Source: Alphaproteobacteria bacterium SO-S41
GTDB lineage: Bacteria; Pseudomonadota; Alphaproteobacteria; Micropepsales; Micropepsaceae
Length of the DNA: 64,000 nt
Assembly: GCA_019670725.1 (NCBI GenBank)
Contig: AP024629.1
Span: 3,224,001 to 3,288,000, forward strand
Reading direction: 5' to 3'
The translations under genes and the position numbers were made by a program. The notes beneath the pieces were generated by a model that did not search any database, was not told the DNA's origin, and worked only from the letters and a program-made list of their open reading frames with translations. Shown here piece by piece: positions 19,358-29,216 of this stretch; positions within the stretch are counted from its first letter, which is position 1, and the number at the start of each line of letters is the position of its first letter.

Positions 19358-19400
19358 AGCCGTGTCATGGTCCGCGCAGGCGGACCATCCACGGCTTTTT
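19358..19400 (+). terminator. strong intrinsic terminator built from a family B palindrome
   Basis: An outer stem AGCCGTG/CACGGCT and an inner stem ATGGTCCGC/GCGGACCAT with a GCAG tetraloop give about 16 bp of pairing, followed by TTTTT. It ends the rightward chaC-maoC transcript and faces the marR stop at 19408. The core TGTCATG..CCGCGCAGGCGG..CATCCACGG is a family B palindrome also seen at 29138 and 45895. Confidence 0.88.
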
Positions 19401-19407
19401 CATGCCT

Positions 19408-19857
19408 CTACCGCATCCCGTCCAGCTTCACCTTCAGCCGGTCGAGATCCCCGAACAGCCGCGCATAGTCCCCCTCGCTCCACCCGTCGAAGGCCGGCCC
19501 TAGCGCCGGCGCGATCACGCCCAGCGCGCGCTGCAGCGCCTGCCCGCCCTTCGCGGTCAGCGTCAGCACTTTCGAGCGGCCGTCCGTCGCGCTGGCGCTC
19601 GCCTTCAGCAGGCCCTTGGTCACCAGCTTCTGTACGATCTTCGTCACCGCGGGCTGCAGCATCTGCATGTCCGCGGCGATGCCGGTCACCGTCTTCTCGG
19701 GTGGATGGCCGTGGCTGAAATGGATCAGCAGCGAGAACTCGGGATAGGTGAGATTCACCGCCTTCAGGCTGCGGTCCGCGGCGCTGCGCGTCAGCTGCTC
19801 GATAATGCCGATCCAGGTGAGGATGCGAAACGCGTCGGGCTTGGGCGATTGGGCCAT
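19408..19857 (-). CDS. MarR-family transcriptional regulator
   Basis: A 149-residue winged-helix regulator. The helix-turn-helix is at about residues 55-85 (EKTVTGIAADMQMLQPAVTKIVQKLV), followed by the wing with KASASATDGRSKVLTLTAKG, the canonical MarR DGR loop. It lies 11 bp downstream of the Acg-like nitroreductase gene in the same operon. It likely represses the operon by binding the twin ATTC-N4-GAAT sites at 21032-21070; that assignment is inference. MarR proteins commonly respond to phenolic or oxidising ligands, which fits a nitroreductase target. Confidence 0.9.
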   Translation of the reverse strand: MAQSPKPDAFRILTWIGIIEQLTRSAADRSLKAVNLTYPEFSLLIHFSHGHPPEKTVTGIAADMQMLQPAVTKIVQKLVTKGLLKASASATDGRSKVLTLTAKGGQALQRALGVIAPALGPAFDGWSEGDYARLFGDLDRLKVKLDGMR

Positions 19858-19868
19858 CTCGGCTCGTC

Positions 19869-21017
19869 TCAGGCGCGGATGAGATCGTCAAGCGCCCGGC
19901 GCGGCGTCGGCGGCACGTCGTCGGCATAACCGAGGCGGAAGAACATCTGCACGATGCTGCCCGGCGGCGTCTTGATGAAATCCAGGAACCGTTTCTGCGG
20001 CCCCGCCATTTCCGGATACTCCTGCAGCACCTGGCTCAGCGGCGCCATGGCGACGCCCAGCTCTGTCGCCTTCAGGTTCAGCCGCACATAGTCGCGCCCC
20101 GCGGCGATCTCGTCGGCGCGCGTTCCCCCCGGCGTCGTCAGCCAGCCGAACGACCACACCTGCTCCGCCCACGCGACGCCGGTATCGATCGCGCCCTGAT
20201 AGGCGAAGCTGCCCGGCTCCAGCGTCTTCTCCGCAGTGAAAAGCCCAAAGCGCTTCGCCCACCAGAAGAACGGGCCATGGAAGCTGAGCCCATCGCGATG
20301 GGACGCGATCTCGTCGGCGCCGATGCGGAAATAGTCCGCCGATTCCTTGTTGGCGCGCGGCGTCGCGACTTCAGCGAGCCACGCCTCCTTGGCGATTGCC
20401 CGCAGCGTCGCGACCTCGTCCGCCGCCGTCGCGACCTGCAACGGTAACTCGATTGCTCCCGCCAGCGCCGCGCGATGCGCGTCCTCGATCGGCCGCCCGT
20501 CCTCATAGGCGATTTTCACCGACCGCCGCTTCAGCACCTGCACAAACAACGGATCCTTCGCGACGCCTGCGTCCGCGACAAACGCAATCCGCGCCAGCGG
20601 CGTCGCGCCGATCTCCTTCGCCGGCCACGGCCCCTCCGGAAACAGCGTCATCTCGGTGCGATACCCCGCCTCCGCCGCCGCGATGCGCAGCACTTCCAGG
20701 AACGCGCCGCAGCCGACCACGATCTGCCTGAACCACGGATCGGTCGCCGCCAGCAGCCGTGTCTTGTCGATAGAGAGCGTCACAACGCCCGCCTCGCGAA
20801 GATCGGCGATCCAGGCCTGCGTGTTGTGCGGATTGGGCGCCAATAGCGCGTAGCTCAGCGCCCGCCGCCGCGGCTCGGTCTCGCCCGCTGGCGGCCCGTT
20901 CCACGCCGCGACAGCCTCGGCAGGCATCCGGTCGCAGCGGGTGAGGCCCACCCCAACGGCGGCGAACACGGCAGTGCCGCCGATGATGCGGACAAAGGCG
21001 CGGCGGGAGAGCGACAT
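19869..21017 (-). CDS. Acg-like nitroreductase-family protein with twin-arginine signal
   Basis: A 382-residue protein. The N-terminus LSRRAFVRIIGG plus a hydrophobic stretch is a twin-arginine export signal, and Cys28 (LTRCDRM) could be a lipidation site. The body carries the Acg/nitroreductase pattern: LSYALLAPNPHNTQAW (about 50-65), RRSVKIAYEDGRPI, and the late AMAPLSQVLQEYPEM. FMN-dependent nitroreductase folds reduce quinones or nitro compounds; Acg proteins may sequester FMN instead. Export by Tat fits a cofactor-loaded protein. GAGG precedes the ATG at 21017. It is first in an operon with marR. Confidence 0.85.
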   Translation of the reverse strand: MSLSRRAFVRIIGGTAVFAAVGVGLTRCDRMPAEAVAAWNGPPAGETEPRRRALSYALLAPNPHNTQAWIADLREAGVVTLSIDKTRLLAATDPWFRQIVVGCGAFLEVLRIAAAEAGYRTEMTLFPEGPWPAKEIGATPLARIAFVADAGVAKDPLFVQVLKRRSVKIAYEDGRPIEDAHRAALAGAIELPLQVATAADEVATLRAIAKEAWLAEVATPRANKESADYFRIGADEIASHRDGLSFHGPFFWWAKRFGLFTAEKTLEPGSFAYQGAIDTGVAWAEQVWSFGWLTTPGGTRADEIAAGRDYVRLNLKATELGVAMAPLSQVLQEYPEMAGPQKRFLDFIKTPPGSIVQMFFRLGYADDVPPTPRRALDDLIRA

Positions 21018-21031
21018 GGCGGCCTCAACAA

Positions 21032-21075
21032 CATTCTTCGGAATGCAGTTATATATTCCATAGAATATATGTCAA
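21032..21075 (-). promoter_or_regulatory. promoter with two operator dyads for the nitroreductase-marR operon
   Basis: On the minus strand, TTGACA (21075-21070) and TATAAC (21053-21048) are separated by 16 bp, close to the sigma-70 consensus. A perfect dyad ATATATTC-N4-GAATATAT (21051-21070) fills the space between -35 and -10. A second, CATTC-N4-GAATG (21032-21045), lies just downstream. Both contain ATTC-N4-GAAT, and their centres are 22 bp apart, about two helical turns. This is the architecture expected for repression by the MarR protein encoded at the end of the operon. Confidence 0.8.
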
Positions 21076-21120
21076 GGCAAGCGCTCGGCGACGCACCGCC
21101 CTCCCGTCGAGACTGTGAAC

Positions 21121-29137: not shown

Positions 29138-29216
29138 TGTCATGCCCGCGCAGGCGGGCATCCACGGCCCGAGCGTTGTGTCTAACACTTGGATTCCCGC
29201 CTGCGCGGGAATGACA
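29138..29216. repeat. MITE-like family B palindrome pair (dRS3-like core)
   Basis: Two hairpins face each other. TGTCATGCCCGCGCAGGCGG at the left is mirrored by CCGCCTGCGCGGGAATGACA at the right, giving terminal inverted repeats of about 26 bp with two mismatches around a 27-bp unique centre. Each arm is itself a hairpin with a GCAG/CTGC loop. The right arm reads ATTCCC-N8-GGGAAT, the formula of the neisserial dRS3 repeat. No coding capacity. Half-elements of the same type occur at 19364 and 45895. Confidence 0.8.

Follow-up and report, generated by a model that had tools for sequence, protein, structure and literature searches.

The window, the whole 64-kb stretch of DNA that was analysed, carries on its minus strand a gene for an Acg-like protein followed by a gene for a MarR-family regulator, and the promoter upstream of these genes contains two palindromes (dyads 1 and 2) that we regard as candidate operators. 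The features are as follows, with the coordinates of the window.

19869 to 21017, minus strand: acg-like gene, 382 amino acids with a Tat-type N-terminus, Acg-family FMN-binding oxidoreductase (NCBIfam NF047509)
19408 to 19857, minus strand: marR-family regulator gene, 149 amino acids, recognition helix 68-80 with P69 and K73 (Pfam, AlphaFold)
21070 to 21075, minus strand: −35 hexamer TTGACA (from the sequence)
21048 to 21053, minus strand: −10 hexamer TATAAC, between both dyad centres (from the sequence)
21051 to 21070, no strand: putative operator 1 (dyad 1), ATATATTC-TATG-GAATATAT, a perfect palindrome with 8-bp arms (from the sequence; kept in relatives)
21032 to 21045, no strand: putative operator 2 (dyad 2), CATTC-CGAA-GAATG, with 5-bp arms (from the sequence; kept in relatives)

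The marR gene starts 11 nt past the end of acg. The acg product was assigned to the Acg family by NCBIfam NF047509, which it matched with 216.9 bits relative to a cut-off of 199; comparison with Pfam-A gave no match at E 0.001, and its sole solved relative by sequence was MsAcg (2ymv). At its N-terminus a twin-arginine motif is followed by a hydrophobic stretch (SRRAFVRIIGGTAVFAAVGVGL), from which export is predicted, and the two arginines, R5 and R6, were invariant among 14 aligned homologues. The regulator contains the MarR domains PF12802 (39 bits, cut-off 27) and PF01047 (29.5 bits, cut-off 24.6), and its AlphaFold model (pLDDT 91.6) displayed the MarR fold, in which helix 68-80 occupies the recognition position. 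This model matched MarR-fold structures, including SlyA-DNA 3q5f, at E values of about 1e-7; E. coli MarR and P. aeruginosa MexR were also among the fold matches. The operon described in the first-pass annotation, a Tat-signal Acg-family gene with a MarR neighbour, was therefore confirmed by NF047509, by the two Pfam domains and by the invariant arginine pair. Between marR and a convergent MaoC-type gene there is a palindrome with 9-bp arms (19367-19388), likely a shared terminator.

The minus strand from 21005 to 21100 reads ...TTGACATATATTCTATGGAATATATAACTGCATTCCGAAGAATG..., in which the −35 and −10 hexamers are separated by a 16-nt spacer. When the window was searched for TTGACA-N16-TATAAY with up to two mismatches, this promoter was the sole match and had no mismatches, relative to 0.45 matches expected by chance; a general promoter scan requiring a final T in the −10 hexamer called no promoter at TTGACA-N16-TATAAC. 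Dyad 1 spans the spacer together with the last A of the −35 hexamer and half of the −10 hexamer. Transcription is predicted to start at about 21041, within dyad 2; the start codon of acg follows at 21017. The centres of the two dyads are 22 bp apart, corresponding to 2.1 turns at 10.5 bp. Both the near-consensus promoter and the two ATTC-N4-GAAT dyads at this distance had been proposed in the first-pass annotation, and both were verified in the sequence. We also considered a regulatory RNA hairpin arising from dyad 2, and rejected it because the predicted transcription start falls inside that dyad.

ATTC-N4-GAAT was found at four positions in the window, relative to 0.8 expected, and at 14 in the 4.4-Mb genome; two copies within 30 bp of each other occurred only once in the genome, at the locus upstream of acg. 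Four single sites elsewhere in the genome were inspected; none was paired, and three of the four lay inside long open frames. Pairs of dyads with the same core and 12-40 bp apart numbered one in the 64-kb window versus 0.15 expected from simulated sequence. The window also contains, at 29142-29161 and 29193-29212, two similar G+C-rich palindromes with 8-bp arms (ATGCCCGC... and ATTCCCGC...), about 50 bp apart.

For the comparison with other Acg loci, a protein-level search yielded Acg homologues in 38 of 147 related genomes, and 80 further loci were taken from GTDB genomes; counts were made over the 97 distinct Acg loci with a usable upstream region. A marR gene lay directly downstream of acg in 90 of the 97, and the assemblies with the operon were mostly Alphaproteobacterial, a few being Gamma- or Betaproteobacterial or cyanobacterial. 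Closer Acg homologues had an adjacent marR and ATTC-N4-GAAT pairs 20-22 bp apart before acg. One clade of the same family had the twin operator about 820-860 bp upstream of acg, before an extra first gene encoding a DUF4386 membrane protein (L014:2654-3430, minus strand, with a matching gene in L002, L008, L010, L012, and L016). A blind scan of the 147 genomes for two ATTC-N4-GAAT motifs separated by any gap from 0 to 30 returned 23 places; with gaps of 8-10, 14 of 16 places belonged to an Acg locus, lying either immediately upstream or at a distance of one gene, and with other gaps none of seven did.

As operator letters might differ among loci, two similar palindromes 12-40 bp apart were also sought and scored relative to a block-shuffled null. 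Scores above the 99% null were obtained for 61 of the 97 loci, and the spacing was 20-24 bp in 50 of these 61; spacings in the null were spread out. After refinement of the register, with manual setting in L054, L095, and L117, an operator was assigned in 88 loci. Whether the dyads are conserved upstream of orthologous acg-marR operons had been set beforehand as a test of the first-pass proposal, and the proposal passed it, with two or more related palindromes present in 80 of the 97 loci; L015 and L059 had a single clear site each. The promoter-proximal spacing in the 80 loci was 20 bp in 41, 21 bp in 17, 22 bp in 13, 23-24 bp in six, and 29-32 bp in three, placing 71 of them at 20-22 bp, and the spacings clustered in phase at 10.5 bp (R=0.78). 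The centre of operator 2 was usually located 13-34 nt upstream of the start codon in relatives. Of 66 aligned loci with a best hexamer of at least 4/6, 42 had a TTGACA-like hexamer starting 13-18 bp upstream of the centre of dyad 1. For the seven Acg loci lacking marR (L080, L106, L107, L109, L112, L121, and L130) the twin-palindrome score was below the 95% null. Four of these (L107, L109, L112, and L130), from Burkholderiales, have Acg homologues with neither an adjacent marR nor a twin operator. In eight Reyranella-type loci (L065, L067, L069, L074, L075, L076, L078, and L083) the pair is preceded, 32-33 bp further upstream, by a third palindrome that belongs to its class; this distance is close to three helical turns.

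The operators fell into at least three sequence classes at kept spacing: ATTCC/GGAAT in the window, the family of the source organism, Reyranella, Sneathiella, Minwuia, and two cyanobacterial assemblies; GTTYAA/TTRAAC in many Rhizobiales and Caulobacter; and NCGAT/ATCGN mainly in Rhodobacterales. Single variants were ATGCG/CGCAT with R73 (L122) and ATTTCC/GGAAAT with K73 (L091); being nested among ATTCC relatives, they are apparently recent operator changes. Residue 73 of the regulator was lysine in 47 of 47 members of the ATTCC class; GTTYAA-type operators occurred mostly with N73, and operators with a GAT core (G at position 7 of the half-site) almost always with H73, L081 and L093 being exceptions with N73. 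For each protein column we calculated the mutual information with the letters of the operator half-sites, using 370 Acg columns, which have much the same phylogeny, as the control. The highest values were those of MarR residues K73 and P69, about 5.7 each, relative to 4.56 for the best of the 370 Acg columns; with the non-ATTCC operators alone, residues 73 and 69 still led (2.95 and 3.00 versus 2.44), and within the ATTCC class alone there was no MarR covariation beyond the controls. Both residues lie within the modelled recognition helix. As the Acg tree needs only about seven operator class changes, a test of residue 73 versus operator by independent pairs had one to five usable pairs and lacked the power to reach significance. 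The covariation supports the operon's own MarR as the binder, with statistics limited by the small number of independent operator changes.

From the layout, conservation, phased spacing and helix/operator covariation, which rest on sequence, we infer MarR binding, cooperativity, repression and ligand release. Relief of repression by a ligand is the norm for MarR proteins. As regards position, palindromes of the 16-20 bp operator size overlap the promoter of acg-marR and recur together with this operon in relatives; the size of MarR operators and their control by ligands have been described (PMC10458429). We propose that the acg-marR control region is very probably autoregulated, with the operon's own MarR acting at the two phased palindromes and released by a ligand. 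A MarR dimer would bind to each palindrome, one in the −35/−10 spacer and the other across the transcription start, and occupancy of either dyad would hinder RNA polymerase. Separated by two helical turns, both dimers would lie on one face of the helix and jointly exclude RNA polymerase; the ligand would then free the repressor, and the exported FMN protein and the regulator would be made together. The earlier claim of two MarR-type operators on the same helix face within one promoter was upheld in this sense by layout, conservation and covariation, and the module is real, conserved and probably autoregulatory. Against the proposal stand the loci with one clear site, spacings of 24, 29-30 or 32 bp, the clade in which an extra gene follows the pair, and the absence of MarR covariation inside the ATTCC class.

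Other readings of the two dyads were weighed against this proposal. Being richer in A+T than the sequence around it, the promoter region might, in a G+C-rich genome, give rise to palindromes by chance; with so few same-core pairs expected per 64 kb, a pair that is unique in the genome and conserved across dozens of operons excludes this reading for practical purposes. A regulator encoded elsewhere might instead bind the dyads, with MarR merely co-transcribed, as co-transcription is no proof of autoregulation; this we consider quite improbable, since covariation with the operator is stronger for the recognition helix of the operon's MarR than for any Acg control column, and the Acg loci without marR are also without the pair. 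A more serious contender, to which we give somewhat less than even weight, is that MarR binds to both sites independently, with neither dimer contact nor cooperativity, the distance of 20-22 bp being set by the promoter. Dyad 1 occupies the spacer and dyad 2 covers +1, and promoter geometry alone would give positions near −23 and −1, a distance of about 21 bp. However, the third sites of the Reyranella type are again near whole turns, and in-between spacings (24 and 29 bp) are few, a pattern not demanded by promoter geometry. Returning to the proposed two-dimer module, we lean slightly towards the view that its spacing and promoter position have been selected more strongly than its letters, which would switch (ATTCC, GTTYAA, NCGAT, ATGCG) together with residues 69 and 73 as a natural recognition code, pairing K73 with C at half-site position 7, N73 mostly with A, and H73 with G.

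The ligand was earlier suggested to be a nitro- or quinone-type compound, for which the operon would be a tightly repressed sensor. This idea is based on the family name: the Acg family is nitroreductase-like, and phenols or quinones are sensed by some MarR proteins. The 149-amino-acid regulator contains no cysteine, and so does not belong with the thiol-switch subgroup (OhrR/YodB type), which uses a redox-active cysteine; this argues against thiol-based sensing of quinones or oxidants. Moreover, the nitroreductase activity of characterised Acg proteins is contested, and MsAcg can use neither NADH nor NADPH (PMC11841060). We therefore found the suggestion unsupported, and consider it unlikely that the operon is a tightly repressed sensor of nitroaromatics or quinones.

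In the open literature searched, we found no description of the acg-marR operon or its operator. A widespread, uncharacterised operon thus gains a specific regulatory model, and the natural operator/regulator pairs make the DNA specificity of MarR testable by single-residue swaps. The inducer of MarR offers a route to the role of the exported Acg proteins, because it should point to the Acg substrate.

Among known systems, the acg product shares with MsAcg 2ymv, of the Acg/Rv3131 FMN oxidoreductases, its membership of the Acg family by NCBIfam above the cut-off. Mycobacterial acg and Rv3131 are DosR-regulated (PMC11841060); in contrast, the Acg of the window has a Tat-type N-terminus and predicted control by MarR. 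For the regulator, the closest solved structures by sequence belong to the SlyA/RovA group (4aih and 3q5f), with which it shares the winged-helix fold; Q68-P69 align with Q-P of SlyA, and K73 falls opposite an arginine in the helix of SlyA. Identity with this group is low, however, the NCBIfam SlyA model giving 33 bits relative to a cut-off of 120, and, unlike SlyA/RovA, the operon's MarR is associated with an ATTCC/GGAAT operator and is, as far as seen, a local regulator of one operon. Closest in arrangement are E. coli MarR at marO and P. aeruginosa MexR, autoregulated MarR-family operons with more than one operator; they have in common with the acg-marR operon the MarR fold, short palindromes, sites that overlap the promoter of the repressor's operon, and the presence of two sites in a single control region. 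The acg-marR operon differs from them in its partner gene, whose product is an exported Acg protein and not an efflux or stress regulator, and in its spacing, which is fixed at 20-22 bp among operators with changed letters. As two-site MarR operators are known in general, the module is ordinary in kind, and new and widespread as an acg-marR member; its added interest is the switching of operator letters at constant spacing.
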